In this document: positions 21,217 to 39,665 of the stretch, piece by piece | Layout: each line of letters begins with the position of its first letter | How positions within the stretch are numbered: the stretch's first letter is position 1 | The notes under the pieces: generated by a model | What the model saw: the letters and a program-made list of their open reading frames with translations, nothing else | What the model was told of the DNA's origin: nothing | The model's database searches: none | Origin: Streptomyces sp. NBC_00162 | Lineage (GTDB): Bacteria; Actinomycetota; Actinomycetes; Streptomycetales; Streptomycetaceae | Assembly: GCF_024611995.1 (NCBI RefSeq) | Contig: NZ_CP102509.1 | Span: 3,286,001 to 3,350,000 of the forward strand | Direction: 5' to 3' | DNA length: 64,000 nt | Translations under genes and position numbers: made by a program

Positions 21217-21270
21217 GAACGGGTGCCCAGTTCGTGGGACGGCCACCGGTCTGCGCGATACGGTCCGAGC

Positions 21271-22440
21271 ATGGCCGGACACATCGGGCAGCGCATCGCC
21301 GCTCGGCGGCGAGCCCGACGGATGACTCAAGCCGACCTCGCTCGCGAGGCCCACGTCTCCCTCCCCATGATCAAAGGCTGCGAACGGGGCGTCCGTTCGC
21401 CCGGGCCGTCCACGCTGGAAGCGATCGCCGCCGCGCTCGGTGTGGACGCGTCCCGCCTCGATCCGGCTTACGTCGGCACCGGACGCCGCGTCCACGCCGC
21501 ACTCCCATCGATCTCTGCGGCGATTGCCGGATACGAGATCGCGCCAGACCCGGCCGGCAGGCCGCTGGGCCAGTTACGAAAGGACATCGATGACGCTGTC
21601 GGGTGGCGCCTAGCAGCCCAGTACGGCTTTATCGCGGCGCAGGGCCCCAAACTTCTCGGGGACGCGCTGGCGCACCTGCACTCAGCTTCCGGCGCCCACC
21701 GCGAGGAAGCGGCACACCTCGTCGTCGCGGCGGCGCGGACGGCCGATGCGGTGACCTACAAGTTCGGCGCACACGATCTTTCGGCCCGGCTGATCGACGT
21801 GATGCGGTGGACGTCCGGGCAGTCCAAGGACCCGGACCTGAGCGCTTGCGTCGCCTACGTACGCGCCGAGACCTTCCTTGCCGCCCGTGCTTACCGCGTC
21901 GGCCACCTCGCGCTGGAGCGAGCCCTCGATGCGGTCCCTACACCGAACACCGAGCGGTCGATGGCGACCCTCGGCGCACTGCACATGCGGACCGCCGTCG
22001 TCGCCGCGCGAGCAGGCAGCGCGGATGCCGCCTACAACCATCTGAACGAGGCCCGGACACTCGCGCAGGGCGTTCCCGAGGGCGTCTACCTCGGCACCTC
22101 GTTCGGGCCGTCCAATGTCCGCATCCACGAGGTGGCCGTCTCGGTCAGCCTCGGGAGGGACCACATCGGCCGCGCCCTGGACGTCGCCCGTGATTGGAGC
22201 CCGGGCCGGGAGATCCCGGCAGAGCGCCGGTCCGGATTCTGGATCGAGGTGGCGCGTGCACACCTGTGGTCCGGCAACCCGGACGAAGCCTTCAACTGCC
22301 TCAAGGAAGCCCGCAAGCACGCACCGCAGCACGTACGCGAGCACCCGTGGGCACGAGAGGACATCGGGAAGATCCGCCGACTCAAGCATGCTGACGCCGA
22401 GTCATTGACGTCCTACGGCGAGTGGATCGGCGCCATCTGA
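21271..22440 (+). CDS. XRE-family regulator with helical repeat C-terminus
   Basis: 389-residue regulator: an N-terminal helix-turn-helix (QRIAARRRARRMTQADLAREAHVSLPMIKGCERGVRSPGPSTLEAIAAALGV, about 6-60) and a long all-helical C-terminal region with TPR-like repeats (ERALDAVPTPNTERSMATLGALHMRTAVVAARAG; DEAFNCLKEARKHAPQH). This layout is common in Streptomyces regulators that sense a peptide or small protein partner. A perfect palindrome lies 10 bases downstream, before two small genes on the same strand, so those are the likely targets. Base composition is a little less G+C-biased than in flanking core genes. Confidence 0.85.
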   Translation: MAGHIGQRIAARRRARRMTQADLAREAHVSLPMIKGCERGVRSPGPSTLEAIAAALGVDASRLDPAYVGTGRRVHAALPSISAAIAGYEIAPDPAGRPLGQLRKDIDDAVGWRLAAQYGFIAAQGPKLLGDALAHLHSASGAHREEAAHLVVAAARTADAVTYKFGAHDLSARLIDVMRWTSGQSKDPDLSACVAYVRAETFLAARAYRVGHLALERALDAVPTPNTERSMATLGALHMRTAVVAARAGSADAAYNHLNEARTLAQGVPEGVYLGTSFGPSNVRIHEVAVSVSLGRDHIGRALDVARDWSPGREIPAERRSGFWIEVARAHLWSGNPDEAFNCLKEARKHAPQHVREHPWAREDIGKIRRLKHADAESLTSYGEWIGAI

Positions 22441-23533: not shown

Positions 23534-26500
23534 CTACGGCTGCGGCTCGAAGTCCCAGTACGGGCGGGTCTGTTGCTTTGCCGCGACGGTGTGGACGTGC
23601 TGGGGGCCCAGGGTGCGGGTGAGGCCCTTGATGCCCGCGTCCTCGTGCTTGCCCGCCTCCGCGTCCTCGCGTACCGAACGGAGATCGGCGGCCAGGGCGA
23701 TCTGGGCGCTCAGCGTCATCGGGTGGTCCGGGCCCAGCACCTGTTCGGCGGTGCGCAGTGTCTCGCGGCTCAGGGACAGCGCGTCCTCCAGGTGCCCGGT
23801 GATGTTGCGGTGCCCGGTGGCGTTCAGGGCGCAGCCCAGCGTCCAGGGGTGCCGGTCGCCGAGCGCGCCCCGCATGCCGACCAGCGCCTGCTCCGCGAGC
23901 GAGAGGGCCTCCGCGCGCTCGCCCTGGGCGCGCAGCACCAGCCCGAGGTTGCCGACCGTGCCGATGCTGTACGGGTGGGCCAGGCCCAGCTGCGACTGGT
24001 AGCCGCGGACCACGTCCTCCGAGATCCGGCGGGCCTCGCCGATGTCCCCGTACTCGCGCAGGTAGGTCGCGTAGTCGGAGGCCACCATCAGCGTCCACGG
24101 GTAGTCGACCCCGAACACCCGCGTCGCCCGCTCCCACACGGTCCGCAGCCGCAGCCCCGCGCCGGGGATGTCCCCGGAGCGGCGCAGGCACAGCCCGAGG
24201 TTGTGCTCGGCGCGCAGGGTCTGCGGGTGGCCCAGCCCCAGCACCTGGGTGTTGAGCTTGACCCCCTGCTCCTGCCGGGTCTGCGCCTCCCGGTAGCGGC
24301 CCATCAGCCGCAGTCCCATGGCGCAGGCGATGCCGGAGGAGAGGGTGGAGATGTGCTGGGCGCGCAGCACCCGCTCGCGGCGGCGCAGGGTGTCCAGGTC
24401 GAGCTCGTAGGCGTCCTGGTAGCGGCCCAGCAGCCGGTAGGTGGCGGCGAGGTTGTTCTGGGCGCCCAGGGTGGTGGAGTCGTCCTCGCCGAGCAGCTCG
24501 CGGTAGGTGGCCAGGCAGTGCTCGAAGATCTCGCGGGCGGGCTCGAACTTGGCGATGCAGAGCAGCACTCCCCCGTACGCGCTGCTGGCGCGCAGGGTCT
24601 CCAGGTCGCGCTCGCCGCGTTCCCCGGTGAGCCGGTCGGCGACGGCCTGGGTGAGGGTCTCGGCCGTCCGGAACAGGCCGAGGTTGCGCAGGGCTCCGCC
24701 GTACTGGTAGCTGAGCTCGCGGACCTTGGGGTGGTCCTCGCCGAGCATGGCCCGCCAGGACTGGTCGGTCTCCTCGGACAGCCGCAGGCAGGTGCGGTAC
24801 TCCCCGGCGAGGATCAGGTAGCGCAGGCAGTGCAGCAGGAAGTTCTGGATGCGCGGGTTGCTGCTGGTCAGCACCCCGGAGGTGGACAGGTGCGGGATGA
24901 GTTCGGCGTAGCGGGGCCACAGCCGGGAGTCGGAGGGGCGGCCGGGGTCGGCGGCGGCGAGGACCTGGCGGACGGCGCGGGCGAGCGGTTCGGCCTCGTC
25001 CTCGGAGAGGTTCTCGCGGACGATGCCGTGCACCATGCGGTGCAGCTGTACGGTCTCCAGCCCGCCGCCGCCCTCCTCCACGGGCAGGTCGGAGTACTCC
25101 AGGCGGACGACGGAGAACTGGACGAGCTTGTTGAGGGCCGCGTTCCACCGGATCTGGTCGTTGATCAGCCCGGCGAGCTGTTCGGGCACGTCGTCGGCCG
25201 GGAACTCGCGCAGCAGCCGCAGCGGCACGGGCCCGGGTGCGAAGAAGACGAACAGCCGCAGGAGGGCCAGGGCGTCGGGGAAGTTCTCCCGTACGTTGTT
25301 GAGCAGTATCGCCAGGGCCGTGGGGAAGGGCAGCGGGTAGTCGTCGGAGACGGTGACGGCCTCGCGGGAGTCCAGCCGGCGCTGGAGCAGCGCCAGGTAG
25401 TCGCCGACGGTCAGCGGGGAGTCGGCGAGCCAGCCCGCGGTCTGGTCGAGGGCGAGCGGGTAGTCCTCCAGGGCCTCGGCCAGCTGGTCGGCCTCGACGG
25501 CGGTCAGTCTCAGGGCCCGGCGGCGGATGAAGGTGATGGACTCGGGCCGGGCGTAGAGCGGGACTTCGACGAGGCTGGTGTGCCGGGAGGCCCATTCGCG
25601 GTTGCGGGAGGTGATGATGACGTCGCCCGCGCCGGAGGGCAGCAGGTCTGTGAGGTCGTCGGGGTTGTCGCATCCGTCGAAGACCATCAGCCAGCGGCTG
25701 TACGGGGATCCGCGCCGCAGCGCCTCCAGGACGGCCCGGATCTGCTCGCCGTAACTGCCGGCGCCGCGCGGCAGGCCGAGGGCGGGGGCCAGGTCGGCGA
25801 GGCGTTCGCGCAGGGTGGGCCGGTCCTCGGCGGGGACCCACCAGACCACGTCGTACTCGGAGGCGAAGCGGTAGGCGTACTCGGTGGCGACCTGGGTCTT
25901 GCCGACTCCGGAGAGCCCCAGCAGGGTGACGGTGGAGGCGCCGGCCGGGGCTTCGGTGAGCGCCGCGCGCAGGGTGCCGATGACGTCGTTGCGGCCGGTG
26001 AAGCGCGGGTTGCGGCGCGGGACCCGGCCCCAGATCTCCGGCGGGTCGTTGGGGAAGCGGGGCCCGCGGCGGCCGGTCTCGGTGCCGATGCGGTCGGTGG
26101 GCAGCTCCAGGCGGCGCAGCACGCGGTACTCCGCCTCGTACGCGTCCAGGCCCCACAGGTCGGTCTTCTCCAGTACGGCCACGGCGCTGGGCAGCGGGGC
26201 GTCGGTGAGGCAGACCGCCGCGAACCGGTCGGGGTGGCGGTCGGTGACCGTGCGCAGGGCGGTGTTCCACTCCGCGTCCTGGACGTCGCCGGGGGTGCCG
26301 GCGGAGAAGTAGCGCTCGCTGAGGACGAGCAGGACCCGGCTGCCCGAGCGGGCGAGGTCGTCGAGGGCCTGCGCGAGTCCGGGGCTGTTCTGCGGGTCCC
26401 AGCGCTGGAGGGCGACGCGGTGGCCGTGTTCCTCCAGGCGGTGGGCGATCCAGACGGCCCAGGGCCGGTTGAACCCGGCGAAGCTGATGACGAAGCGCTG

Positions 26501-26545
26501 CGGCCCAGCGGTGGAGCCCTGTTCCTGCCGACTACCGGTGGTCAT
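23534..26545 (-). CDS. fxsT: TIR / NB-ARC / TPR protein of the FxSxx-COOH system (FxsT type)
   Basis: 1003-residue STAND-type signalling protein. The N-terminal TIR-like domain (about 16-130) has RFVISFAGFNRPWAVWIA, LLVLSERYFSAG and a candidate catalytic Glu92 in DAEWNTAL. The NB-ARC NTPase follows (RFTGRNDVIGTL; Walker A GLSGVGKT 210-217; Walker B WLMVFDGCD near 285-293; VIITSRNREW near 309). The C-terminal half (about 560-1003) is a long array of tetratricopeptide repeats of the Kinesin-light-chain-like 42-residue type. In known families the TPR array senses a ligand, the NB-ARC oligomerises and the TIR consumes or remodels NAD or signals. It is the last gene of the minus-strand cassette, 73 bases after the HExxH gene. 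Confidence 0.9.
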   Translation of the reverse strand: MTTGSRQEQGSTAGPQRFVISFAGFNRPWAVWIAHRLEEHGHRVALQRWDPQNSPGLAQALDDLARSGSRVLLVLSERYFSAGTPGDVQDAEWNTALRTVTDRHPDRFAAVCLTDAPLPSAVAVLEKTDLWGLDAYEAEYRVLRRLELPTDRIGTETGRRGPRFPNDPPEIWGRVPRRNPRFTGRNDVIGTLRAALTEAPAGASTVTLLGLSGVGKTQVATEYAYRFASEYDVVWWVPAEDRPTLRERLADLAPALGLPRGAGSYGEQIRAVLEALRRGSPYSRWLMVFDGCDNPDDLTDLLPSGAGDVIITSRNREWASRHTSLVEVPLYARPESITFIRRRALRLTAVEADQLAEALEDYPLALDQTAGWLADSPLTVGDYLALLQRRLDSREAVTVSDDYPLPFPTALAILLNNVRENFPDALALLRLFVFFAPGPVPLRLLREFPADDVPEQLAGLINDQIRWNAALNKLVQFSVVRLEYSDLPVEEGGGGLETVQLHRMVHGIVRENLSEDEAEPLARAVRQVLAAADPGRPSDSRLWPRYAELIPHLSTSGVLTSSNPRIQNFLLHCLRYLILAGEYRTCLRLSEETDQSWRAMLGEDHPKVRELSYQYGGALRNLGLFRTAETLTQAVADRLTGERGERDLETLRASSAYGGVLLCIAKFEPAREIFEHCLATYRELLGEDDSTTLGAQNNLAATYRLLGRYQDAYELDLDTLRRRERVLRAQHISTLSSGIACAMGLRLMGRYREAQTRQEQGVKLNTQVLGLGHPQTLRAEHNLGLCLRRSGDIPGAGLRLRTVWERATRVFGVDYPWTLMVASDYATYLREYGDIGEARRISEDVVRGYQSQLGLAHPYSIGTVGNLGLVLRAQGERAEALSLAEQALVGMRGALGDRHPWTLGCALNATGHRNITGHLEDALSLSRETLRTAEQVLGPDHPMTLSAQIALAADLRSVREDAEAGKHEDAGIKGLTRTLGPQHVHTVAAKQQTRPYWDFEPQP

Positions 26546-26618
26546 GCGGCCGTCTCCCTGAAATCCGGGCAGTGGACGGGCTTGAAAGGTACCGCAGCAC
26601 TGCCCTTGGCGAAGCCCC

Positions 26619-27875
26619 TCAAGCCCGTACGAACGGGGCGAGTTCGGGATGGGCCTCGCACCAGGCGCGGCGTTCGCGGTCGACGGCCCGGCGGGCGGTG
26701 GCGTGCTGGTCCCCGGGCGGCGGGAGCTCGTCCATGTTCCGCTCGGCGGCGGCCATGGCGCCGGTGAACTCCCGTCCCGCGGAGGTCAGTCGGTCGTGCG
26801 CGCGCAGTACGGGCAGGACGGCGGCGACCTGGGCACGGCTGCGGGCGTGCTGGGCCCAGGCGCCGCGGGCTCCGTAGAGGGCGGCGCGCTGCCAGTACCC
26901 GGCCAGGGCCAGATGGGCGTACGCGCCGTGCAGGAGCCCTTCCAGCGGGCGGGGGTCGGCGCGCCAGGGGGCCCAGTACCGGGGGGTGCGGTCGGCGGTG
27001 TGCAGGGTCAGCACGTCGGCGAGGGCGGTGAGCTTGCCGTGCTGGACCTCGTGCACGAGGGTGGCGGCCAGCGCGGGCGGGGCCTGCGCACGGGCCAGTA
27101 CGGAACCGGCGGCCGCGGGCAGGGTGGCGCCGCTGGAGCGGGAGCCGCCGGCCAGCGGCACGACCGAGCGCAGCAGTTGGACGGTCTCCTCGGCGCGGGC
27201 GGTGTCGTACCGCTCGAGCAGGGTGAGCGCGCCGGCCCACTGGGTGTCCCAGCGCTTGTGGCCCTTGGGGGTGAGCCGGCGGGCGGGGCGGACGGGGGCC
27301 GGCCGGTCGGGGCCGGGCGCCCGGTAGGGGTCGAGGTCGTCGAGGGCGGTGCGGCCTCCGGGGAGGGTGTGCAGGGGCAGGGTGGCCGGGTGCCCGGGGT
27401 CCCAGGAGCGTTCGGTGAGGGCGAGCGGGCCGGGGCGGTCCGGGCGCAGCAGTCCGAGGGTGGGCAGGACGAGGCGCCCGTGCAGGGGCCGCAGGGTGTG
27501 GGTGAAGGCGAGCCCGGAGCGCAGGGCTGCGGCGACGGCGAGGGCCCCGAGGTGGCCGAGGTCCGGCGGGGGCCCGTACGGGGCGTGCAGGCGGCGCAGG
27601 GTCTCCTCGGCCCACACCCCGGTGGCGGGGTAGTGCAGGACGTCGCGGACGGCGCCCGGGTCGTGCCGTTCGGCCTCCTCCAGCAGGGCCCAGTGGTCGG
27701 CGGTCTCCCCGGCCCGGGCGCCGGGGGCGGCGTCGAGGACGGCGCGCAGCAGGACCAGGCGCTTGGAGCGGCGTACGTCGCGGACCAGGCGGGTGCCTTC
27801 GGTGCAGGGCTCGGTGGAGGCGAGGGCGCGCAGGGTGCGGGAGGAGACGGTGAAGGAGGCGAGGGCGGCGGTCAT
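26619..27875 (-). CDS. HExxH protein, putative aKG-type peptide beta-hydroxylase (fxs cassette)
   Basis: 418-residue protein that follows fxsB with an ATGA overlap. It begins in FTVSSRTLRALAS and carries the family motif HEVQH at 275-279 in ALAATLVHEVQHGKL, then a helical C-terminus. Members of this family accompany FxsB either as a separate protein or as a fused domain (FxsBH), and the HExxH was first read as a metallopeptidase but is now usually called an iron/2-oxoglutarate-dependent peptide hydroxylase. Expected role: second tailoring step on the FxsA precursor. Which chemistry it performs here is inference. Confidence 0.82.
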   Translation of the reverse strand: MTAALASFTVSSRTLRALASTEPCTEGTRLVRDVRRSKRLVLLRAVLDAAPGARAGETADHWALLEEAERHDPGAVRDVLHYPATGVWAEETLRRLHAPYGPPPDLGHLGALAVAAALRSGLAFTHTLRPLHGRLVLPTLGLLRPDRPGPLALTERSWDPGHPATLPLHTLPGGRTALDDLDPYRAPGPDRPAPVRPARRLTPKGHKRWDTQWAGALTLLERYDTARAEETVQLLRSVVPLAGGSRSSGATLPAAAGSVLARAQAPPALAATLVHEVQHGKLTALADVLTLHTADRTPRYWAPWRADPRPLEGLLHGAYAHLALAGYWQRAALYGARGAWAQHARSRAQVAAVLPVLRAHDRLTSAGREFTGAMAAAERNMDELPPPGDQHATARRAVDRERRAWCEAHPELAPFVRA

Positions 27876-29149
27876 GAGGCGACCGCCGGGGGACGGGCGG
27901 CGGGGGTTCGGGCGGTGGGAGTTCGGGCCGCGCGCTCGAGGGCCGTGGCGATGTGCCGGATGAGGACCTGGAGATCCGCGCAGTACACGGACGGCTGCCG
28001 GAAGCCCTCGCCGGCCCGGTAGCGGTGCGGGTAGTGCCCGCCGCCGCACACCTCGACCAGTTCGCAGGCGCGGCAGCCGGCGGCGAGCGCGTCCCGGCCG
28101 AGCTGGCGGGCGGCGAACCCGGGGTGGTCGAGGAGCTGGTCGAAGCTGTGCGTGTCGAGGGTCATCCCGGTGGCGGCGGCGCCCTCGTAGGCGGACTTCA
28201 GCGAATCGGCCTGTTCGATGGAGCCATCGGTCTCGATGACGGCGGTGGCGGCGGGCGCGAGCCCGAGGGTCTCGGTGGCGGCGGGCAGGCCGAGCAGCAG
28301 GGCGATGATCTCCTCGAAGGTCCGGATCCGGGTGCGCCGCACTCCGTCGTGCCACCAGCGTTCGAAGACGGCGAGGAGCCAGTCGGCGTACGGGGTCCCG
28401 CGGGGGCGGTGGCCGGGCGGCGGGGAGCTCCAGTTGGCGAGCGGCAGCAGCAGCCCGACGCTGGGCGGGGCGAAGGCGAGCAGGGACTCGTACGTCTCGA
28501 CGGGGTCGTGGGCGAGGTCGATGACGCAGAGCACCCCGGCGTAGCTGTCCGGATGCCGTGCCAGCAGCCGCAGGCCGCGGGCGGCGGCGGCGAATCCGGG
28601 GCGTCCGGCGTGGTCCACGCGCCGGGTGTTGTGCGCGGGGAGCCCTCCGTCGAGGCTGACGCCGACGCGGATCCCGGCGGCGGCCAGCGCGGCGAGGCGG
28701 CCGCGGGTGAGGAGGGTGCCGTTGGTCTGGACGGTGGCGGTGACGCGGGTGCGCGGGGCGGCCGCGGCCACGGCGGCCCGTACGGCGTCGACGGGCTCGG
28801 CCAGCCGGGCGGGCGCGGTGAGCAGCGGTTCGCCGCCGTGCAGGACGAGGTCGACGCGGGGCAGGTCGTGGACGGCGGCGTGCTCGGCGATCCGCTCGGC
28901 GGCTCGGGCGGCGGTGGCCGGGGCCATGAGGGCGGGCTGGGCGCGCCAGCCCTGGTCGGCCATCTCGTAGACGTAGCAGTAGGTGCAGGCGAGGTTGCAG
29001 CGGCTGCGCGTCTTGAGCACGAACTGCCGGATGGGATGGGGCCGGTGTCCGGCGGCGCGCAGGGCGGGCACGTCGAGCCGGATGTAGGGCCAGGGCGCGT
29101 GGGTCCGGTGCGCGATCTGTTCGGCCGCGCTCGTCTGGGTGTGCCTCAT
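27872..29149 (-). CDS. fxsB: Radical SAM/SPASM peptide maturase, FxsB family
   Basis: 425-residue radical SAM enzyme. The [4Fe-4S]-AdoMet motif is CNLACTYC (Cys51, Cys55, Cys58), followed by VDLVLHGGEPLL (the GGE motif), TVQTNGTLL and VGVSLDGG. The C-terminus has a SPASM-like auxiliary cluster region (CRACELVEVCGGGHYPHRY and a later Cys). FxsB enzymes act on short precursors ending in an F-x-S motif, most likely forming a side-chain crosslink. The ATG at 29149 lies 211 bases downstream of the precursor gene, and its 3' end overlaps the HExxH gene by four bases. Confident family call; product structure unknown. Confidence 0.93.
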   Translation of the reverse strand: MRHTQTSAAEQIAHRTHAPWPYIRLDVPALRAAGHRPHPIRQFVLKTRSRCNLACTYCYVYEMADQGWRAQPALMAPATAARAAERIAEHAAVHDLPRVDLVLHGGEPLLTAPARLAEPVDAVRAAVAAAAPRTRVTATVQTNGTLLTRGRLAALAAAGIRVGVSLDGGLPAHNTRRVDHAGRPGFAAAARGLRLLARHPDSYAGVLCVIDLAHDPVETYESLLAFAPPSVGLLLPLANWSSPPPGHRPRGTPYADWLLAVFERWWHDGVRRTRIRTFEEIIALLLGLPAATETLGLAPAATAVIETDGSIEQADSLKSAYEGAAATGMTLDTHSFDQLLDHPGFAARQLGRDALAAGCRACELVEVCGGGHYPHRYRAGEGFRQPSVYCADLQVLIRHIATALERAARTPTARTPAARPPAVAS

Positions 29150-29259
29150 CGCAGTACCTCCCGCCCCCGTACACCGCAGGGAGGCGCCCCCTGCGGACGG
29201 TCCATCCCTGCCCTTCGGACGGCCTCGGCTAACGGCGGAAAGTGGTCAACCGGCCTGTG

Positions 29260-29355
29260 GTCCGCGTGACTCGGGCCACTCGTGCGGCTTCGGTGTCTTC
29301 GGTGTCTCAGGGGGCTTCGGGCGACTCGGGCGGCCGAGGTGACTCGGGTGGCGCC
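29260..29355. repeat. Degenerate short repeats between fxsA and fxsB
   Basis: A run of roughly 9-10-base units based on (G)ACTCGGG and CTTCGG(TG) (three copies of GACTCGGG and three of CTTCGG) fills the gap between precursor and maturase genes. It is not convincingly coding in any frame. It may form RNA structure that lowers maturase expression relative to the precursor. Confidence 0.4.
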
Positions 29356-29360
29356 CCGGG

Positions 29361-29555
29361 TCAATCGACCCCGGAGTCGAAGGCGTTCAGGATCTCGGCC
29401 GGGTGGGTCACCCGCTCGACCATGCCCTCGATCACCTGGGCCAGCACGGGATGGTCGATCCCGCGCAGCGCCGCCAGATCCAGCCCGGAGAGGTCCGGGA
29501 GCCGTCCGGGGCACTTGTGGACCACCACTGCCACGTCCTGATCCTTCGTCACCAT
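29361..29555 (-). CDS. fxsA: FxSxx-COOH-type precursor peptide (FxsA)
   Basis: 64-residue peptide. A leader-like stretch (DLSGLDLAALRGIDHPVLAQ) matches the conserved leader region of FxSxx precursors, and the C-terminus is NAFDSGVD. It therefore carries the Phe-x-Ser motif one residue further from the carboxy end (F-x-S-x-x-x) than the family name implies. ATG 29555 is preceded by AGGGGGA. It lies immediately upstream of fxsB and downstream of the vWA/TPR gene on the same strand. It is the expected substrate of FxsB and of the HExxH enzyme. Confidence 0.85.
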   Translation of the reverse strand: MVTKDQDVAVVVHKCPGRLPDLSGLDLAALRGIDHPVLAQVIEGMVERVTHPAEILNAFDSGVD

Positions 29556-29654
29556 GGGCCGCCCGTCCCCCTGTTGCGTCGCACGTTCGATGGTCCACTG
29601 CCCTTTCCCCTCCCCCGCTGCCCGGAAACGGCCGGGCCGGGGGCGCAGGGCGGC

Positions 29655-32600
29655 TCAGAGGGCCGCCTCCAGAGCGCTGATCCGCCCGGCGAGCGCCTCG
29701 GACCGCCCCTCCCACTGCCCCTCGGACCGCCCCTCGGCACCCGCGCCGAGCCGCCCCCACAATTCCAGCGCCGAGCGGTACGCGTCCAGGGCCGCCCGGG
29801 GCCGGGCCAGCCGCTCGAGTACCTCCCCGCGCAGCTCCTGCACGCGGGCCGCGAGCTGCACGGCGAGATCCTGGCGCTCCTCGCGGTCGGCCTCGAGGGC
29901 GGACCGCCAGGCCCGCCGGTAGGAGTCCGCCGCCCGGTCGAGGCGGTCCGCCGCCCGGGTGTGGCCGTGGATCTCCAGCTGCACGTCCGCGTGGTCCCGC
30001 CAGGCGCGGGCCCGTTCCAGCGGGCTGCGGCTCTGCCGGACGGCGAGTTCCAGCAGGTACTCCGCCTCCCGCAGGTCCACCGGGTCCCCTTCGTAGGTGT
30101 GCCGCAGCCGCAGCCCGGTGGCCAGCCTCAGCAGCCGGTGCGCCGCCCCCGGGTCGGACTGCGGCACCGCCGCCCGGCTGTCGCGCAGCACGCGTACGGC
30201 GGCCCCGGTGAACCGCCGCCCGTCGGCGGCCCGGGCCCGCTCCAGCAGTACGTCACCCCACTCGGGCAGCAGCTCCCCGAAGGCCTCCGCGTCCCGGGGG
30301 ATCAGCCGCCGGGCCCTGCCGTACGCCTCGGCGGCCTCCTCCAGCGCCACCGGGTCGGCGTCCCGCTCGTACCGGGCCCGGTGCACCCGCGCCAGGCACA
30401 CCAGGGCGGCCACCCGCAGTTCGGGATCCCCGCCCGCCTCCCCGAAGGCCGCGTCCAGCTCCCCGGCCGCCTCCTCGAGCCGCCCGGGCAGGTACCGCAG
30501 CGCGCCGGCCAGCTCGACCCGGGTCCGGGCGCGCGTCTCCCGCCCGGCGGCGTCCTCCGCGGTCAGGCCGGTCACGGCCAGGCGGGCCGCGGCCTGTTCG
30601 GCCAGGGCCGTGCGCTCGGCCGGGTCGGGCGTGTGGGGCAGCAGGGCCAGCAGGACGCGGCCCAGGGCCCGTTGCAGCTCGGGGTACGCCGCGCCGTCGT
30701 CGTCGGCGGCGGCGGCAGCGCCTGCGACGGGCTCCAGGGCGGCCCGCGCCTCGCGCAGCGCGCCCGGGTCCTCGCGCAGCGCGCTCAGCCGGATCAGGGT
30801 CTCGGCCCGGCGCACCGCGCAGTCCCGGCGCAGCCCGGGGTCGGCGGAGGCGCTCGCCGCCGCGAACTCCCGGTCGGCGGCGGCCAGCAGATCCGCCCGG
30901 GGTTCGGCGACCAGCGCCCGCTCGTACAGCACCCGGCCCAGCACGGCCCGGGCCGGGGCCGTGCGCAGGCCCGTCACGGTCCGCTCCGCCTCGGTGAGGA
31001 GTTCCGGGTCCCGCTGCGCCGCCCACAGCCGCAGCAGCGCGCCGGCCAGTTCGGTCTCGGCCTCCTCCGGCGGGTCGCCGGGCCCGGGCGGGGCCGCGAC
31101 CGCCCGGCGCAGTACGGCCACGGCCTCGTAGAGCGCCCGCGCGTCCCCGTCCGCTTCCCCGTTCCCGTCCCGGTCCGCGTCGGCGAGCCGCTCCCGCGCG
31201 GCGCGCACCGCTCCGGCCCTCCCGGGCGGCGCCGGGGGCGTGACGGCCTCGCGCACCGGCGGGCCCTCCTCGGGCATGCCGGGCAGGTAGCGCCGTACGA
31301 CCTTGGCCGAGACCTGCGCGAAGGCCCGCGGGAGCCGCCCGGCGGGGACCCGATCGGCGTCCCCCGGACCCGGGCCAGGGCCAGGGCCCGACCCCGGGCC
31401 AGGGCCGCCCTCGGCCGCCTCGGGCGGTGCTCCGGTGAGCTGAGAGACGGCGAGCGCGGGAAAGTTCCGTACGCCCCGCCCGAAGTGGGCCAGCACGTAC
31501 TCCGAGCAGTGCTTGAGCACGAGAGCGGCCTCGTCCCGCCCCAGCGGCCCCAGCAGCACGTCCTGCACCCCGGGGGCGAACTCGTACCACTGGCCGGGGG
31601 TGTCCGCGCTGCGCCTCAGCAGGCCGCTCAGCAGTACCTCGGCCAGGTCCGAGGGTTCGGAGTCGGGCAGCATCGTGCGCTGCACCAGCCGCATGACGGG
31701 CAGCGTCAGCGGGGCCGCCGACAGGTACACGGCCAGCTGTACGGCCCGGGGCGCGGACGAGGACCGGAACCGCGCCACCAGCTCGCGCGGCGGCCGTACG
31801 GCACGGGGCGGCGGCAGGGGCGCGGCCGGGTGGGCGGCCAGCACCCGGCCCACTTCGGCCGGTACCGGGCCGGTGCCGATTCCGGCGACGAGCCGGGCCC
31901 ATGCCCCGAGGGCGATGGCGCTCGGCGGCAGCACGGGCACGGTGAGCCCTCCCGTGGGCCGCCCGGGCAGCGGCGGCCGGTCCGACCGGAATTTCAGCTT
32001 CCCCGCGCTGCCCTCGACCCGGGAGAGCGTGCCGCGCTCGGTCGGCAGCCAGCTGCGTCCCCACAGCCGCTGGGGCAGCGGCTGGACGACCACGCACGGG
32101 GTGCATTCGGCCCAGCGGTGCAGCAGCCGCTGGGCCGAGCCCTCGCGCCACAGCGGTCCGGCGCAGTCGGAGACCACCATGGTCAGCGCCCGGCCGGTGG
32201 GGTCGCGCAGCTGGTCCCCCGAGCGCAGCCCGGCGCCGGGCACGGGGCCGCGCCCGAGCGCCGCGGTACCGTCGGCGAGCCGGTGCAGGTAGTGCACCTG
32301 GACGTCCCGGAAGGCCCCCAACCGCTCGCACACGGTGCGCAGTTCCTCGAACATGTCCTGCCACACCGCCATCGACGGCGACGCGTCCATCACCAGCCGT
32401 ACGGTGGCCTCGCGCCGGCTCTCCGGTTTGAGCACCGGGATGATCAGCCCGAGGGCCCGGGCGCTGGCCTCGGCGGTGGCCGGTTCGTCGAGCACCGTCC
32501 GGATGGGCGGGGCGGGTGGGCGGTGCCGCTGGAGGGCGCGCAGGGCCCGCTGTATCTCGAGGATCCGGGGCAGCGCGGCCGCCCCGGGCACCCGTACGGG

Positions 32601-32915
32601 CACCCCGCGCTCCCCGGGCGGCTCCCCGGTGAGCTCCGCTTCCGCTTCGCCGGCGCGGCGCGGCCCGGGCGCGTAGAGCCTGATCGGATCCTCAGTCTCC
32701 GTTTCCACCCGCTCGGGATCCTCGGGCAGCCTGACCGGATCATCAGCCTCCGGCTCGGGTACGGGCACCTCCGCACCCGGCGCCGGCTGCCCGGGCCGGC
32801 GGATCCGTGCGGCCAGCCACAGCGCGTCGGCGAGCTCCTCGGCGGACGGATCGAGCCCGGCGCGGCGCAGCAGCGCGGCCAGTTCGCGGATGCCGGGCGG
32901 TCCGGCGGGCGGCAC
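29655..32915 (-). CDS. SAV_2336-type protein: vWA-like domain plus TPR-like repeats
   Basis: 1086-residue cytoplasmic protein. The N-terminus (GIRELAALLRRAGLDPSAEELADALWLAARI) is the SAV_2336 N-terminal domain; an acidic linker follows; a von Willebrand A-like domain begins near 165 with RREATVRLVMDASPSM, giving a MIDAS-like D177-x-S179-x-S181, and MVVSDCAGPLW. The last 500 residues are Ala/Leu/Arg-rich helical repeats like TPRs. In vWA-MoxR-VMAP systems the vWA protein is the substrate or adaptor of the MoxR ATPase. GTG 32915 lies six bases after the MoxR stop with GAGG upstream. Downstream is the precursor peptide, linking this module to the RiPP genes. Confidence 0.88.
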   Translation of the reverse strand: MPPAGPPGIRELAALLRRAGLDPSAEELADALWLAARIRRPGQPAPGAEVPVPEPEADDPVRLPEDPERVETETEDPIRLYAPGPRRAGEAEAELTGEPPGERGVPVRVPGAAALPRILEIQRALRALQRHRPPAPPIRTVLDEPATAEASARALGLIIPVLKPESRREATVRLVMDASPSMAVWQDMFEELRTVCERLGAFRDVQVHYLHRLADGTAALGRGPVPGAGLRSGDQLRDPTGRALTMVVSDCAGPLWREGSAQRLLHRWAECTPCVVVQPLPQRLWGRSWLPTERGTLSRVEGSAGKLKFRSDRPPLPGRPTGGLTVPVLPPSAIALGAWARLVAGIGTGPVPAEVGRVLAAHPAAPLPPPRAVRPPRELVARFRSSSAPRAVQLAVYLSAAPLTLPVMRLVQRTMLPDSEPSDLAEVLLSGLLRRSADTPGQWYEFAPGVQDVLLGPLGRDEAALVLKHCSEYVLAHFGRGVRNFPALAVSQLTGAPPEAAEGGPGPGSGPGPGPGPGDADRVPAGRLPRAFAQVSAKVVRRYLPGMPEEGPPVREAVTPPAPPGRAGAVRAARERLADADRDGNGEADGDARALYEAVAVLRRAVAAPPGPGDPPEEAETELAGALLRLWAAQRDPELLTEAERTVTGLRTAPARAVLGRVLYERALVAEPRADLLAAADREFAAASASADPGLRRDCAVRRAETLIRLSALREDPGALREARAALEPVAGAAAAADDDGAAYPELQRALGRVLLALLPHTPDPAERTALAEQAAARLAVTGLTAEDAAGRETRARTRVELAGALRYLPGRLEEAAGELDAAFGEAGGDPELRVAALVCLARVHRARYERDADPVALEEAAEAYGRARRLIPRDAEAFGELLPEWGDVLLERARAADGRRFTGAAVRVLRDSRAAVPQSDPGAAHRLLRLATGLRLRHTYEGDPVDLREAEYLLELAVRQSRSPLERARAWRDHADVQLEIHGHTRAADRLDRAADSYRRAWRSALEADREERQDLAVQLAARVQELRGEVLERLARPRAALDAYRSALELWGRLGAGAEGRSEGQWEGRSEALAGRISALEAAL

Positions 32916-32921
32916 GGCCCG

Positions 32922-33932
32922 TCACCTCGGGCGGTCGAGGCGCTGGATGAGCAGGTCCGCAAGGTCCTCCCGGGTGGGCGGGGCGGCGTAGTGGGTCAGG
33001 TAGACGGCGTTCAGCAGCTGGTCGGCGGCGACCAGCTCGGACTGCGACCGGCTGAGGAACTCCCGGATCAGGTCGGCCCCCAACTGGGCGGCCTCCTCCC
33101 CGAGGTGGGCGCGGACCATGGTGGCGAGCCGCTTCTCACCGGGCTGTCCGAGCTTGAGCTGAATGCAGCGCCGCAGCAGCGCGGCGGGGAAGTCCCGCTC
33201 CCCGTTGCTGGTCAGGATGATGAAGGGGAAGGCCCGGCAGCGCACCCGGCCGCCCATGACGGTCACCTTCGACCCGTCGTCCGTGAGCACCTGCACCTCG
33301 GGCTCGGTGTCGGCCACCCGCTCCAGCTCGGGAAGGGCGAACTCCCCTTCCTCCAGTACGTTCAGCAGGTCGTTGGGGAGGTCGATGTCGCTCTTGTCGA
33401 GCTCGTCGACGAGCAGGACCCGGGGCCGCGCGGTGGGCAGCAGGGCGGTGCCCAGCGGCCCGAGCCGGATGTACTTGCCGATCCCCGGAGCCCCGCCCGG
33501 AGCCCCGCCGCTCGCCGCGATCTGCACGTCCTGGAGCCGGGCGAGGGCGTCGTAGCGGTAGAGCCCGTCCTGGAGCACGGTCCGCGACACCACCGGCCAG
33601 CGCAGCACCCGCCCCAGCTTCAGCTCGTGGGCGACGGCGTGCGCGAGGGTGGACTTGCCCGTGCCGGGAAAGCCCGTCACCAGCAGCGGCCGGCGCAGGT
33701 ACAGGGCGGCGTTGATGGCCTCCAGCTCCTCCGGCTCGGGCCGGTGCAGCTCGGCGGCCTGCCGGTGGGCCCCGAGCCGCCGGGCGACGTTCCCGTCCGT
33801 CACCGCCGCCGGACCGCCCGCCTCCACCACGGGCCCGCCGTCGAAGTCCCGCCACGGCGGCGGATCGGGCAGGGCCTCGATCCCGTCGTGCGGCTCACCG
33901 ACACCTCGGTATATGAGCCATTCGTCGTTCAT
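32922..33932 (-). CDS. MoxR-type AAA+ ATPase
   Basis: 336-residue AAA+ ATPase of the MoxR/YehL-like branch. Seen: Walker A GFPGTGKS (87-94), Walker B VLLVDELDKSD (about 172-182), sensor 1 in IILTSNGERDFP (about 239-249) and the arginine pair RRC near 254. The N-terminal tail (MNDEWLIYRGVGEPHDGI) is specific to this subgroup. MoxR ATPases remodel a partner vWA protein, here the SAV_2336-type gene six bases downstream. The ATG at 33932 follows the protease stop by 22 bases. Middle gene of a three-gene vWA-MoxR-VMAP-like unit. Confidence 0.9.
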   Translation of the reverse strand: MNDEWLIYRGVGEPHDGIEALPDPPPWRDFDGGPVVEAGGPAAVTDGNVARRLGAHRQAAELHRPEPEELEAINAALYLRRPLLVTGFPGTGKSTLAHAVAHELKLGRVLRWPVVSRTVLQDGLYRYDALARLQDVQIAASGGAPGGAPGIGKYIRLGPLGTALLPTARPRVLLVDELDKSDIDLPNDLLNVLEEGEFALPELERVADTEPEVQVLTDDGSKVTVMGGRVRCRAFPFIILTSNGERDFPAALLRRCIQLKLGQPGEKRLATMVRAHLGEEAAQLGADLIREFLSRSQSELVAADQLLNAVYLTHYAAPPTREDLADLLIQRLDRPR

Positions 33933-33954
33933 CGGTGCTGCTCCCTCCTGCCGG

Positions 33955-36027
33955 TCACAGGTCGCCCTGGAGCGGCTCGTCCTCGGGCAGGGCGCGTGCG
34001 GGGTCGTTCCAGACGAGTGCCGCCCCCGCCGTCCAGTACGCGTCCGGGTCGGCCCCGTACGCCCGCCCCCGCAGCGCCTGCAACCGCAGCGGCAGCACCT
34101 CCGCCCGTCCGGCGTCGGCCAGTTCCTCCCGCAGCCCGCGGTGGAAGGGGGCGCACGACACCCCCGGATCCGCCGGGGGCCGCCGGCACACCACCACCCC
34201 GTACCCGGCGTCCCGCACCGCATGCAGCGAGCCGAGCGTGGGCTCCTCCGCCGCTGCCCGGCAGTGCACGGGCACGGTGTTGTCCGGGAGCCCGGCCAGC
34301 CAGCCCGCGGACGGGCTGCGCGGCCGTCCCCGCACACAGTCGGCCCGTTCGTCCAGCAGCGGTCCCGCCTGCGCCCGCGCCCACCGGGCGGCCGCCGCGG
34401 GCGCGGGGTCCGCGGCCGGGTACCGGAACACCACCGGCCGCTGCACCCCCACCGGCACCCTGCCCACCAGCACCCACTCGTCCGCCGCCAGCCCGAACAG
34501 CTCCGGGGCGACGGCCACTTCGAGCGGAGCCGCCGCCTCGTGGGTGTCGCAGCGCCGGAAGGCCTCGGCGAGCGGGGCCCGTAACGCCTCCGGCAGGCCC
34601 GCCTCGGTGGCCCGTACCCCGGAGTCCACCGGTGTCACCCGCCCCGGATGTTCCGGGCCCGCCAGCACCGCCACCCGCCAGTCGTAGACGTCCTCCCAGC
34701 CGTGCGCCCACACCTCCAGCAGGACCGACGCCCCGGGGGGCAGCCCGCCGGACGGCCGGACCGGACCGTGCACCGCCTGCCCGGCCAGGGCCCGCCGGCG
34801 CCGCGCCCGCTCGGCCAGGCCCCGCTCGTGGCGCTCGCCGAGCTCCCGGCGCAGCGGGCGCCACAGCCGCTCGGCGGTGGCCCGTACCCAGTCCCACAAC
34901 TCCTCGTCGGCGCCCGGCGTCGGCGGCTCGCGGTAGTCGGCCACGCTCACGTCCGTCGCGTACCGGAGCATGGCCGCGGCCTCCCCCGCCCCGCCCGGCG
35001 GGTCGTGCAGCAGCCCCAGGCCGTCGCGCCAGCTGAGCGGGGCGAGCGGATGCGGCTCCGGCTCCTCCCCGCGCGCCGCCTCCACCAGGGCCCGTACGAC
35101 CTCCGAGGAGCCCGGCGGGGGCAGTTCGGCGAGCAGCCCGCACAGGGTGGTGCGCTCGCCGGGGGTGAGCCGGCCGCGCCCGCCGTACGGGTCACCGTCC
35201 CCGGCCGGGAGTTCGCCGTGCGCGTCCGTCCAGGTCCGGCGGCTGTTGAGGTCGCTGAGGTGCTGGTCGTAGTGGTGCAGGTCGTGGGCCTGCATGACCC
35301 GGCGGTAGAGCCCGGTCTGGCCGCGCGCGGGCATCGGCAGGGTGCGCAGCTGCACGACGGAGACGGCGAGCCCGCCGCCCCCGGTGTGCCGCCGGGCTTT
35401 GACCACGCCGACGACCTCGCCGCGGGCCAGGTCGACCACCGGCCCGCCGGACATTCCGGGATCGATCTCGTCGTCGTCGCCGAGCCGGATGGCCGCGCCG
35501 TGGCCCGCGGTGCCGCGCAGCCGGGTGGTGCGGCCCGTGATCTCGGGCGTGCCCAGGTCTTCGGTGCAGCCGAAGTAGGCGACCTCGTCGAAGCGGGGCC
35601 TGGAGCGGTCGGTCAGCCAGACGCAGGCGTGCGAGACGGGGGCCAGGACCCTGATCAGCGCCAGGTCGGGCAGGTCCCACAGGGCCTGCCGGCCGGGACG
35701 CCGCTCCTCCAGCCGCTCGGGCAGTACGCACTCCACGCGCCCGGCGACCGTACCGGTGGAGCCGTTGCCGGTGACGCTGACCCCTGAGGAGAAGGTGATG
35801 CCTACCTCGCGCCCCGTCAGACGCACCGCAGCACCCCCTTCACCGACCACGTGCGCACACGTCAGGACCCAGCCGGGGGCGATGAAGAAGCCGCTCCCCC
35901 AGGTGGGTCCGGTCCCAGCCGTTCCATACCCGTCCGGCGGGGCGTGGACGCGTACGGTCGCCGCCTGGACGAGGGGCTCCAGGAGCTCGAAGGCGCGCGC
36001 GGAGCCGGCCGTGCGCCCCTCCGTCAT
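33955..36027 (-). CDS. Trypsin-like serine protease with VMAP-like C-terminal domain
   Basis: 690-residue protein. The N-terminal chymotrypsin-fold domain has a complete triad: His59 in LTCAHVVG, Asp121 in LPDLALIRV, and Ser193 in DPGMSGGPVVD. There is no signal peptide, so it acts inside the cell. A helical middle (about 265-340; LTPGERTTLCGLLAELP) resembles effector-associated linkers, and the C-terminal 260 residues (EVWAHGWEDVYDWRVAVL, VAPELFGLAADEWVLV, RPVVFRYP, RWARAQAG) look like the VMAP-C domain of vWA-MoxR-associated proteins. In this system class the protease is the effector released by the ATPase switch. First gene of the cassette; ATG 36027. The VMAP assignment is by eye. Confidence 0.83.
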   Translation of the reverse strand: MTEGRTAGSARAFELLEPLVQAATVRVHAPPDGYGTAGTGPTWGSGFFIAPGWVLTCAHVVGEGGAAVRLTGREVGITFSSGVSVTGNGSTGTVAGRVECVLPERLEERRPGRQALWDLPDLALIRVLAPVSHACVWLTDRSRPRFDEVAYFGCTEDLGTPEITGRTTRLRGTAGHGAAIRLGDDDEIDPGMSGGPVVDLARGEVVGVVKARRHTGGGGLAVSVVQLRTLPMPARGQTGLYRRVMQAHDLHHYDQHLSDLNSRRTWTDAHGELPAGDGDPYGGRGRLTPGERTTLCGLLAELPPPGSSEVVRALVEAARGEEPEPHPLAPLSWRDGLGLLHDPPGGAGEAAAMLRYATDVSVADYREPPTPGADEELWDWVRATAERLWRPLRRELGERHERGLAERARRRRALAGQAVHGPVRPSGGLPPGASVLLEVWAHGWEDVYDWRVAVLAGPEHPGRVTPVDSGVRATEAGLPEALRAPLAEAFRRCDTHEAAAPLEVAVAPELFGLAADEWVLVGRVPVGVQRPVVFRYPAADPAPAAAARWARAQAGPLLDERADCVRGRPRSPSAGWLAGLPDNTVPVHCRAAAEEPTLGSLHAVRDAGYGVVVCRRPPADPGVSCAPFHRGLREELADAGRAEVLPLRLQALRGRAYGADPDAYWTAGAALVWNDPARALPEDEPLQGDL

Positions 36028-36157
36028 ACGCGCCCCCCCGCTCGTGAGGCGTCCAGGTTAGCGCCGGAGGCTCCGCAGCCGGGAGGCTTCGCGGCCGGGC
36101 GGATTATCCTGGCGGGAAACACCCCCTGAACACCCTCATCACGGCACGGAGCCCGAC

Positions 36158-36343
36158 TTGTACTTCACCGATCGCGGCATCGAGGAGCTGGAGAAGCGGC
36201 GCGGCGAGGAGGAGGTCACCTTCGAGTGGCTCGCCGAGCAGCTGCGCACCTTCGTCGACCTGAACCCGGACTTCGAGGTCCCGGTGGAACGCCTGGCCAC
36301 CTGGCTGGCCCGCCTGGACGACGAGGACGACGAGGACGAGTGA
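36158..36343 (+). CDS. DUF6104 family small protein
   Basis: 61-residue highly charged protein (MYFTDRGIEELEKRRGEEE, ending in an Asp/Glu run). It is well conserved in Streptomyces but has no known role. It starts at TTG 36158 with GGAG eight bases upstream; no ATG or GTG exists in the conserved part. It is divergent from the protease cassette and convergent with sodN, with a shared terminator hairpin. Confidence 0.85.
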   Translation: MYFTDRGIEELEKRRGEEEVTFEWLAEQLRTFVDLNPDFEVPVERLATWLARLDDEDDEDE

Positions 36344-36350
36344 CCCGTAC

Positions 36351-36391
36351 GAGAACGGCCCGGCTGCCAGGTGGGCAGTCGGGCCGTTCTC
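36351..36391. terminator. Bidirectional terminator between the DUF6104 gene and sodN
   Basis: An 18-base-pair stem with one G-T wobble (36351-36368 with 36374-36391, arms beginning GAGAACGGCCCG) and a five-base loop between two convergent genes. On the minus strand it would also form the 3' end of the sodN transcript. Confidence 0.8.
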
Positions 36392-36447
36392 GTTGTCGCG
36401 TCGCCCGCCGAAGACGGCGCGGGCGGGCAGGGGTACCGGGCGCCGGA

Positions 36448-36843
36448 TCAGGCGGCCTTGGTCTCCCAGAAGATGCGGTCGATCTCGGCGATGAGCTCGA
36501 GGGCCTTCTGGCCGGTCGCCGGGTCGTTCGACGCCTTGGCGGCCGAGAGGGCCTTCAGGGTGTCGTTGACCAGGGTGTGCAGCTGCGGGTACTTCTCGAA
36601 GTGCGGCGGCTTGAAGTAGTCGCTCCACAGCACCGAGACGTGGTGCTTCGCGAGCTCGGCGCGCTGCTCCTTGATGGTGATGGCGCGCGCGCGGAAGTCG
36701 GCGTCGTCGTTGGCCTGGTACTTCTCCTGCACGGCCTTGACGGACTCGGCCTCGATGCGGGCCTGGGCAGGGTCGTACACGCCGCACGGCAGATCGCAGT
36801 GGGCGGAGACCTTCGCCTTGGGGGCGAAGAGGCGGGAAAGCAT
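36448..36843 (-). CDS. sodN: Nickel-containing superoxide dismutase precursor
   Basis: 131-residue precursor of cytoplasmic Ni-SOD, which dismutates superoxide. The 14-residue propeptide MLSRLFAPKAKVSA is removed to expose the Ni hook HCDLPCGVYDPAQ, in which His15, Cys16 and Cys20 (precursor numbering) bind nickel. The rest is the four-helix bundle ending FWETKAA. Longer in-frame starts upstream are rejected because the propeptide length is fixed in the family. It is divergent from sodX, which makes the protease that cleaves the propeptide. Nickel-dependent regulation is known for the family; I see no clear Nur box. Confidence 0.98.
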   Translation of the reverse strand: MLSRLFAPKAKVSAHCDLPCGVYDPAQARIEAESVKAVQEKYQANDDADFRARAITIKEQRAELAKHHVSVLWSDYFKPPHFEKYPQLHTLVNDTLKALSAAKASNDPATGQKALELIAEIDRIFWETKAA

Positions 36844-37015
36844 GGAGTGTGTCCTCCTCGTGATCGTCTTCTCAAGGGGGAGATTACTCGCTCGGAATCG
36901 CCTTTTCGCGGTCGCCCCCATGGGCTTAGGACAAAAGTCCAGGGTCGCGGGCGGACCGGTGAGCGAATGTACGGATCCGTACGGCAGCATGCGGGGGGTG
37001 ACGAGGAGGTCGGGC

Positions 37016-37441
37016 ATGACGGAGAACGGGCGCCGCCCGCGCAAGCGGTTCGAGGTGCTGGAGGTGACGGGGCCGTCGATGGTGCCCACACTGCTCCACG
37101 GCGACCGGCTGGTGGTCCGCTACGGGGCGGCCGTCCGTCCGGGTGACGTGGTGGTGCTGCGCCACCCGTTCCAGCAGGACCTGTTGGTGGTCAAGCGCGC
37201 GGTGGAGCGGCGGCCGGGCCGCTGCTGGTGGGTGCTCGGCGACAACCCGTACAACGAGACCGGCGACAGCACCGTCTACGGGCCGGTGCCCGAGGAGCTG
37301 GTGCTGGCGACGGCGGTCCTGCGGTTCCGGCCGCGCGAGGACGCTCAGCGCTCGCTGAGGGCGCGGCTCTCGTGGGCGGCCTCGGCGCTGCGCCCGCTCT
37401 GGGCGGACGCCTCGGCCTCCAGCCGCTTGCGGGCGCGGTAG
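37016..37441 (+). CDS. sodX: Nickel superoxide dismutase maturation protease
   Basis: 141-residue S24/S26 signal-peptidase-like serine protease that trims the Ni-SOD propeptide. Catalytic Ser is in VTGPSMVPTLLHGD (near residue 21) and the Lys in DLLVVKRAVERR (near 61); WWVLGDNPYNETGDSTVYGPV is the conserved family box. There is no membrane anchor at the N-terminus. ATG 37016 follows GAGGAGG by seven bases. The last 97 bases overlap the convergent CGNR gene, so the two transcripts are antisense over that stretch. Confidence 0.92.
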   Translation: MTENGRRPRKRFEVLEVTGPSMVPTLLHGDRLVVRYGAAVRPGDVVVLRHPFQQDLLVVKRAVERRPGRCWWVLGDNPYNETGDSTVYGPVPEELVLATAVLRFRPREDAQRSLRARLSWAASALRPLWADASASSRLRAR

Positions 37442-38900: not shown

Positions 38901-39665
38901 TCAGAGCACCTTGGACAGGAACGCCTTCGTCCGGTCGTGCTGCGGGTTGCCCAGCACATCGCGCGGGTGGCCGGACTCGACCACCACGCCGCCGTCCATG
39001 AAGACGAGGTTGTCGCCGACCTCGCGGGCGAAGCCCATCTCGTGCGTGACCACGATCATGGTCATGCCCGACTCGGCCAGGTCCCGCATGACGTCGAGGA
39101 CGTCACCCACCAGCTCCGGGTCGAGCGCCGAGGTGGGCTCGTCGAAGAGCATCAGCTTCGGCTCCATGGCGAGCGCGCGGGCGATCGCCACGCGCTGCTG
39201 CTGGCCGCCGGAGAGCTGGGTGGGGTAGTTCCCGCCCTTGTCGCCGAGGCCCACGCGGTCCAGGAGGCGTGCGGCACGCTCGCGCGCCACCGCCTTGGAC
39301 TCGCCCTTGACCATGACCGGGGCTTCCATGACGTTCTCTATGGCCGTCATGTGCGGGAAGAGGTTGAAGCGCTGGAAGACCATGCCGATGTCCCGGCGCT
39401 GGGCCGCGACCTCGCTGTCCTTCAGCTCGTAGAGCTTGTCGCCCTTCTCGCGGTAGCCGACGAGGGTCCCGTCGACGTACAGCCGTCCGGCGTTGACCTG
39501 CTCCAGGTGGTTGATGCACCGCAGGAAGGTCGACTTGCCGGAGCCGGACGGGCCGACCAGGCAGAAGACCTCACGCGGGGCGACCTCCAGGTCGATGCCC
39601 TTGAGGATGTGCGCCGCACCGTAGGACTTGTGGACGCCCTCGGCCTTCACCATGGCAGTCGTCAT
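38901..39665 (-). CDS. Polar amino acid ABC transporter, ATP-binding protein
   Basis: 254-residue ATPase of a PAAT-family importer. Walker [11 protein letters not shown]-loop [12 protein letters not shown], signature [17 protein letters not shown] and Walker [13 protein letters not shown] are intact, and the H-loop is VVTHEMGFA. It closes a three-gene operon (binding protein, permease, ATPase) and overlaps the permease stop by one base. Glutamate/glutamine or another polar amino acid is the likely substrate class. Confidence 0.95.

Follow-up and report, generated by a model that had tools for sequence, protein, structure and literature searches.

The window (the whole 64,000-nucleotide stretch of Streptomyces sp. 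NBC_00162 DNA that was analysed) carries seven open reading frames between positions 23534 and 36027, all on the minus strand and in the 5′ to 3′ order VMAP, MoxR, vWA, FxsA, FxsB, HExxH and FxsT (Table 1). An earlier note on this DNA had given the seven genes with their coordinates, strand, gap lengths and motifs, and the reading frames and family matches bear these out. The gap from the vWA stop at 29655 to the FxsA start at 29555 is 99 bases, that from the FxsA stop at 29361 to the FxsB start at 29149 is 211 bases, and the FxsB and HExxH genes share a 4-base overlap (27872/27875). An attenuator hairpin in the 211-base gap was considered and rejected, as its folding z is −0.04. No promoter or terminator consensus was matched in 28900–36400, where the search is uninformative because the DNA is GC-rich (shuffles give 0.0 and 0.6).

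Table 1 Features of the seven-gene block, the neighbouring kgd gene, and related loci elsewhere in the same genome
Feature	Position	Strand	Description
VMAP	33955..36027	-	690 aa; HtrA/trypsin-like serine protease domain within ~1-244, helical middle, VMAP-C 446-676
MoxR-type AAA+ ATPase	32922..33932	-	336 aa; AAA_5/AAA matches; N-terminal WLIYRG and PPWRDF
vWA protein, SAV_2336 N-terminal family, C-terminal TPR-like superhelix	29655..32915	-	1086 aa; NF041121
FxsA precursor peptide	29361..29555	-	64 aa; C-terminus ...NAFDSGVD; TIGR04268
FxsB radical SAM/SPASM cyclophane-type maturase	27872..29149	-	425 aa; TIGR04269
HExxH protein, predicted alpha-ketoglutarate-dependent peptide beta-hydroxylase	26619..27875	-	418 aa; TIGR04267
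FxsT: TIR, NB-ARC-like STAND ATPase, kinesin-light-chain-type TPRs	23534..26545	-	1003 aa; NF040586
kgd-like 2-oxoglutarate dehydrogenase	16535-20497	+	convergent with FxsT
Additional vWA/MoxR, FxsB and FxsT loci of the same genome (G000)	C1:7672969 (L194), C1:753401 (L192), C1:6548540 (L193), C1:985939 (L191)		

The upstream half has the composition of a VMAP-ternary system, with the strict order VMAP, MoxR, vWA, a C-terminal VMAP-C domain in VMAP (PF20028, E = 9e-29), and a MIDAS-bearing vWA protein with flanking extensions. The protease domain of VMAP matches Trypsin_2 (E = 3e-14), and it also filled the result rows when structures were searched with the whole chain. According to the available text of PMC7159879, the MoxR of such systems is defined by the N-terminal motifs WxhapG and PsWRxa. 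The MoxR of the window agrees with this definition through its WLIYRG (residues 5–10) and PPWRDF (25–30), conserved at 0.95–1.00 in 60 aligned sequences, where the key Walker A/B residues are at 1.00. Membership of the MoxR gene in the MADS or IetA systems was rejected, as its score against MadB (NF047784) is 59.5 bits and the cut-off is 475; the AAA+ core is what it has in common with MadB of MADS and with the IetA/IteA defence ATPases.

The vWA protein matches NF041121 over residues 25–480 with 451.6 bits (E = 3e-135), and its MIDAS residues D177, S179, S181 and D250 are all at 1.00 in 63 aligned sequences. A Pfam domain scan of this protein gave zero matches. Its C-terminal half is modelled by AlphaFold2 as a run of helical hairpins (block pLDDT mostly >80 from residue 600; whole-chain pTM 0.51), and the Foldseek rows for the model include the TPR superhelices of OGT (1w3b) and LGN; the TPR assignment of this half comes only from the structure model and the fold search.

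The downstream half starts with the precursor FxsA, which scores 46.5 bits against the FxSxx-COOH family TIGR04268 (cut-off 28) and is the only match to that family found in the genome. The leader of FxsA is conserved across 59 aligned sequences. The F-x-S motif is present, but three residues follow the serine (FDSGVD) instead of two. From the F-D-S motif and the enzyme family, the predicted cyclophane site is Phe59–Ser61, where an aromatic-to-C-beta cross-link from i to i+2 would make FxsA a triceptide. Arg48 was also considered as a trypsin site because it is at 1.00 in the 59 aligned precursors, but this role is unsupported, as Arg also occupies this position in some FxsA relatives of other systems.

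FxsB scores 426 bits against TIGR04269 (cut-off 370), with C51, C55 and C58 at 1.00 in 71 aligned sequences, and its nearest solved structure is ChlB (9gm3, E = 1e-78). The HExxH protein scores 142 bits against TIGR04267 (cut-off 40) and has its HExxH intact, with H275, E276 and H279 at 1.00 in 77 aligned sequences. Its nearest solved relatives are first 22nu (E = 1e-16), which was deposited as a radical SAM core domain-containing protein and is matched over its C-terminal half with HEFQH, and then ChlH (8s5f, E = 5e-7). Because of these relatives and the TIGR04267 family, the protein is more likely a peptide beta-hydroxylase than a peptidase, and its use as a precursor-cleaving peptidase is unsupported. 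It may still cut, since one HExxH hydroxylase is reported to cleave a backbone oxidatively (PMC12636437). ChlB/ChlH are a fused pair of radical SAM and alphaKG-HExxH enzymes, whereas here each enzyme has its own gene, in the company of an immune-type receptor and a protease switch. The product chemistry of FxsB and the HExxH protein is a prediction.

FxsT scores 832 bits against the FxSxx TPR protein family NF040586 (cut-off 300) and 69.4 bits against TIR_2, with further matches to TPR_12 and TPR_10, and kinesin light chain TPRs dominate its matches among the sequences of solved structures. As for the domain identities given in the earlier note, VMAP–MoxR–vWA, the FxSxx RiPP genes and the TIR–TPR architecture held, but the NB-ARC label is weak by Pfam because PF00931 reaches 17.6 bits, below its cut-off of 23.5. 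The P-loop residues (G, S, G, GKT) are conserved at 0.98–1.00 in 81 aligned sequences. TIR position 92, which we take to be the catalytic (NADase) position, is Glu in the window and in 74 of 81 FxsT sequences, the others having Q (4), D (2) or S (1). Because Glu92 is missing in these seven, a purely binding role is possible in some FxsT. None of the solved TIR structures matched the FxsT TIR by sequence.

FxsT thus resembles the TIR-NB-ARC/STAND immune receptors (bacterial NLR-like) in having TIR_2, a STAND-type P-loop and TPR repeats. Unlike them, it adjoins a peptide-modification cassette, its NB-ARC score stays under the cut-off, and its TIR Glu is not universal. A PADLOC scan of the seven proteins gave partial matches only, the best being pVip (E = 3e-9) to residues 49–174 of FxsB.

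The seven-gene arrangement is not new. The FxSxx-type VMAP-ternary system was described by Kaur, Burroughs, Iyer and Aravind in 2020 (PMC7159879), whose text, as far as available, gives the same parts in the same order, including a TPR-only vWA, a zincin-like protein and a separate downstream TIR-AP-ATPase-TPR gene. Because the window has this arrangement, with an FxSxx-COOH precursor, a radical SAM/SPASM FxsB, a TPR-only vWA and the separate downstream gene, its block is a member of a kind already described. In the same available text, the peptide is proposed to be a toxin or a signal, the same coupling of the two halves is proposed, and a conflict role is inferred from such features. The zincin-like protein is taken there as a precursor-cleaving peptidase, whereas here its family and nearest structures point to a beta-hydroxylase. 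The text also puts at ~20% the share of actinobacterial VMAP systems that include a peptide-processing system, of whatever type, a figure not directly comparable with the 18 of 70 loci counted below, which stem from one order and one definition. The available portion of PMC7159879 holds no mention that we found of the HExxH protein as a beta-hydroxylase, of a split into long and short FxsB, of the kgd address, or of loci without the radical SAM gene. No experiments on this arrangement were found in the open-licence literature searched.

That the two halves rarely co-occur, on which the earlier note's claim of one composite would have foundered, is not what we found. An FxsT relative is encoded in 285 public-contig stretches, of which the best 80 were kept; 79 of the 80 titles name Streptomyces, and identity to the window's FxsT falls to ~49% in this set. 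Among the 80 loci, 64 reach 10 kb upstream of FxsT, and 59 of these 64 full-flank loci have all seven genes in the window's order. The complete loci comprise 53 found by tblastn, each with the genes on one strand, and six in which a motif pattern located the weakly conserved precursor at the expected place. Chance falls far short of explaining such a gene order.

The five exceptions are L055, L066, L081, L087 and L112. L055 and L066 have FxsA, FxsB, HExxH and FxsT without the ternary genes beside them. Upstream of FxsA, both have an Rhs-like frame, and L055 has a transposase-like one as well. Both of these genomes have vWA relatives elsewhere, one of them matching in three separate pieces. In L081 and L087, VMAP and MoxR were not found, and L087 has a run of N there; to read the two as natural losses is unsupported, as they are possibly assembly artefacts. 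In L112, only HExxH and FxsT were found.

Because the 80-locus set consists of the loci nearest to this FxsT and is therefore biased, a second count was made in 60 genomes of the same order by three family searches, with 70 vWA, 65 FxsB and 111 FxsT places used and four rows left out. Among the 70 vWA loci, 18 are composite. In another 15, which lack FxsB, vWA and FxsT share a single open frame, as judged by equal frame length; five have a separate FxsT but again no FxsB; and in 32 the same strand carries no FxsT within 15 kb. Because of contig breaks, these co-location counts are lower bounds (in G046, for example, FxsB and FxsT lie on separate contigs). FxsB beside vWA without FxsT occurs in none of the 70. 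Composites from another family (G003, G019 and G029) also keep the three marker families together.

The FxsB frames of these genomes fall into 37 long and 28 short ones, the long ones (at least 650 aa) being taken as HExxH-fused, as was seen in the eight that were fetched. A vWA gene lies beside 18 of the 28 short frames, all 18 of which have FxsT as well, versus 0 of the 37 long ones; 34 of the 65 FxsB are long-frame and beside FxsT, without vWA. The split or fused state of FxsB separates composite from stand-alone systems. Stand-alone FxSxx-COOH systems have the FxsA, FxsB, HExxH and FxsT families in common with the window's block, but no vWA lies beside them. Their HExxH match is directly behind FxsB in all eight long-frame loci that were fetched (L130–L137), their FxsT is longer (frames of 1292–1749 aa in 39 of 41 FxsT near FxsB without vWA), and their precursors end in, for example, STFNSAL. 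Incidentally, the genome of the window has related genes away from the block: another vWA/MoxR locus, whose MoxR is 52% identical, two more FxsB genes that are followed by HExxH matches, and a distant FxsT (32%).

A kgd match lies on the opposite strand in the fetched downstream flank of 69 of the 80 loci (best 80 of 285), and the block therefore has a fixed chromosomal address in the genus. In the 60-genome set, FxsT and kgd are on one contig in 15 of 15 same-genus composites, at distances from 81 bases to 8.1 kb. Twelve of them are within 210 bases, and the other three are at 2.1, 3.0 and 8.1 kb; in the 8.1 kb case (G050), a second FxsT is nearer to kgd. For the three composites of the other family, kgd is 8.3 Mb away in G003, on another contig in G019, and without a match in G029. 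Of the 24 same-genus genomes judged to lack the block, 20 were taken, and in none of these 20 does the 8.7–12 kb stretch at kgd show any of the seven genes. Most of the within-genus distribution is accounted for by descent in place with loss or by a single favoured site. In the window, the 3 kb stretch between FxsT and kgd holds an HTH_31/HTH_3 regulator with a weak TPR match (21223–22440, plus strand). This stretch is shorter than 211 bases in 12 of the 15 same-genus composites, and a relative of the regulator occurs in one of the best 80 of 285 loci.

Five loci (L122–L126, in G010, G033, G045, G051 and G053) have VMAP, MoxR, vWA, HExxH and a TIR-bearing FxsT, and no radical SAM gene. Between vWA and HExxH, L123, L124, L125 and L126 contain a frame in which a Trp and the leader pattern of FxsA (LPDL...L..LR..DDP) occur but F-x-S does not, and in L122 only the end of a similar precursor-like stretch was seen. 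The HExxH is intact in all five. Since these loci lack the radical SAM gene and retain the other parts, the design does not depend on the cyclophane. In four of them kgd is within 176 bases, and in the fifth it lies on another contig.

The protein distances follow those of kgd (r 0.54–0.86). After correction for kgd, genes co-diverge across the two halves, for example vWA and FxsT with partial r of 0.66 and 0.80, while little co-divergence is seen for FxsB–VMAP (0.16), FxsB–vWA (0.09) and MoxR–HExxH (0.13) in clade A and for vWA–HExxH (0.17) in clade B, values whose Mantel permutations cannot separate linkage from interaction. With this co-divergence added to the fixed order and the co-occurrence, the composite proposed in the earlier note stands.

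Selection was compared by dN/dS, a simple Nei–Gojobori count in high-GC DNA of which only the ranking is used. Values are low (clades A and B, respectively) for the FxsT NB-ARC (0.15, 0.21) and TPR (0.20, 0.29), the FxsA leader (0.12, 0.23) and MoxR (0.12, 0.20). VMAP is at 0.22–0.30 in clade A and 0.58–0.70 in clade B, and vWA is at 0.53 and 0.52 in its linker and at 0.35 and 0.45 in its TPR half. The pattern weakly suggests that the FxsT ATPase and TPRs see a conserved partner, and VMAP and vWA a changing one. On the other hand, a simple account of this kind is opposed by the FxsT TIR (0.33 in both clades) and middle (0.27 in A, 0.29 in B), which are no tighter than VMAP in clade A, and by the FxsA core, which rises from 0.23 in clade A to 0.43 in clade B.

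We read the block, tentatively and with a confidence just short of even, as an FxSxx-type VMAP-ternary system at a fixed address that acts as an intracellular stress or infection switch ending in growth arrest or cell death. From the gene identities, the fixed order, the conserved catalytic residues and the co-divergence, we infer the following course. First, by the chemistry of its family, FxsB would close a three-residue cyclophane between Phe59 and Ser61 of FxsA, whose cyclised C-terminus would then, likewise by family chemistry, be hydroxylated by the HExxH enzyme. Second, the modified FxsA would stay inside the cell, because the seven genes do not include a transporter, and the TPRs of FxsT, of vWA or of both would bind it, which would set whether FxsT assembles via its STAND ATPase. 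Third, the faster-changing parts, those of VMAP and vWA, would encounter a trigger. MoxR would then remodel the complex and so release the HtrA-like protease of VMAP, which may cut the peptide (for maturation or release) or a partner. The VMAP–MoxR–vWA switch would in this way set the threshold for the release of FxsT, and upon FxsT assembly the TIR would destroy NAD or make a nucleotide signal. In short, the peptide would signal, the receptor would sense, and the TIR or the protease would execute.

A conserved internal ligand of FxsT fits the low dN/dS of the FxsT NB-ARC/TPR and the FxsA leader next to the looser VMAP (in the divergent clade), vWA linker and vWA TPR half. Against such a switch, the protease fold gives no rule for a cut site, and the fixed kgd address is unlike a mobile defence island. 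More specifically, the cyclised and hydroxylated RiPP might serve an NLR-like TIR receptor inside the producing cell as its ligand, its licence or its guarded bait, a reading that we regard as doubtful in this full form. The receptor would read a modification state that needs SAM, an iron-sulphur cluster, O2 and alpha-ketoglutarate, and either lost maturation or protease release through the VMAP switch would fire the TIR effector. If the link between the halves holds, the RiPP would be an intracellular immune-type signal and not a secreted product, and the role of actinobacterial FxSxx cyclophane peptides would become testable. Comparisons are ready at hand, since the locus is compact, has a fixed address in the genus, and offers natural variants (no radical SAM gene, no ternary genes beside, or vWA and FxsT in one frame).

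Alternatively, the block could be a vertically inherited physiological switch, for example in development, redox or central carbon stress, that employs immune-type domains without being anti-phage, the modification of FxsA reporting the metabolic state through SAM/iron-sulphur and O2/alpha-ketoglutarate. The constant nearness to kgd in the same-genus composites and in most of the 80 loci, the protein distances that follow kgd, and a PADLOC result of partial matches only would all suit it. We consider it somewhat unlikely, as presence is patchy, with 20 block-less genomes of the genus having none of the seven genes at kgd, as the VMAP and vWA parts change rapidly in the divergent clade, and as a conflict role was inferred by Kaur et al. 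in the available part of PMC7159879.

Export of FxsA as an antibacterial or signalling RiPP, with FxsT and VMAP as its regulator or immunity genes, would agree with the RiPP families of the precursor and its maturases. It is improbable, as the seven genes include no transporter, the transporter genes found among the ten flanking reading frames scanned are at 38901–40606 with other reading frames between, and FxsB is never beside vWA without FxsT in the 70 vWA loci.

Two functionally separate operons, kept side by side at a single chromosomal place by common descent, could yield the co-divergence through linkage at kgd and do exist apart (32 of 70 vWA without FxsT within 15 kb, 34 of 65 FxsB beside FxsT without vWA, and the L055 and L066 sets without adjoining ternary genes), but they are quite improbable given that the other-family composites keep the set where kgd is not shown beside them, that only short FxsB goes with vWA, and that vWA and FxsT share one open frame in 15 of 70 loci.

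On the upstream side of the block, the frame at ~36448–36843 (minus strand) resembles a nickel superoxide dismutase gene, and the overlapping frame at 36674–37441 (plus strand) is signal-peptidase-like; a scan of nearby frames gave no family match. A match to the nickel-superoxide-dismutase-like gene appears at the flank edge in five of the 80 loci and within ~12 kb of kgd in two of the 20 block-less genomes.
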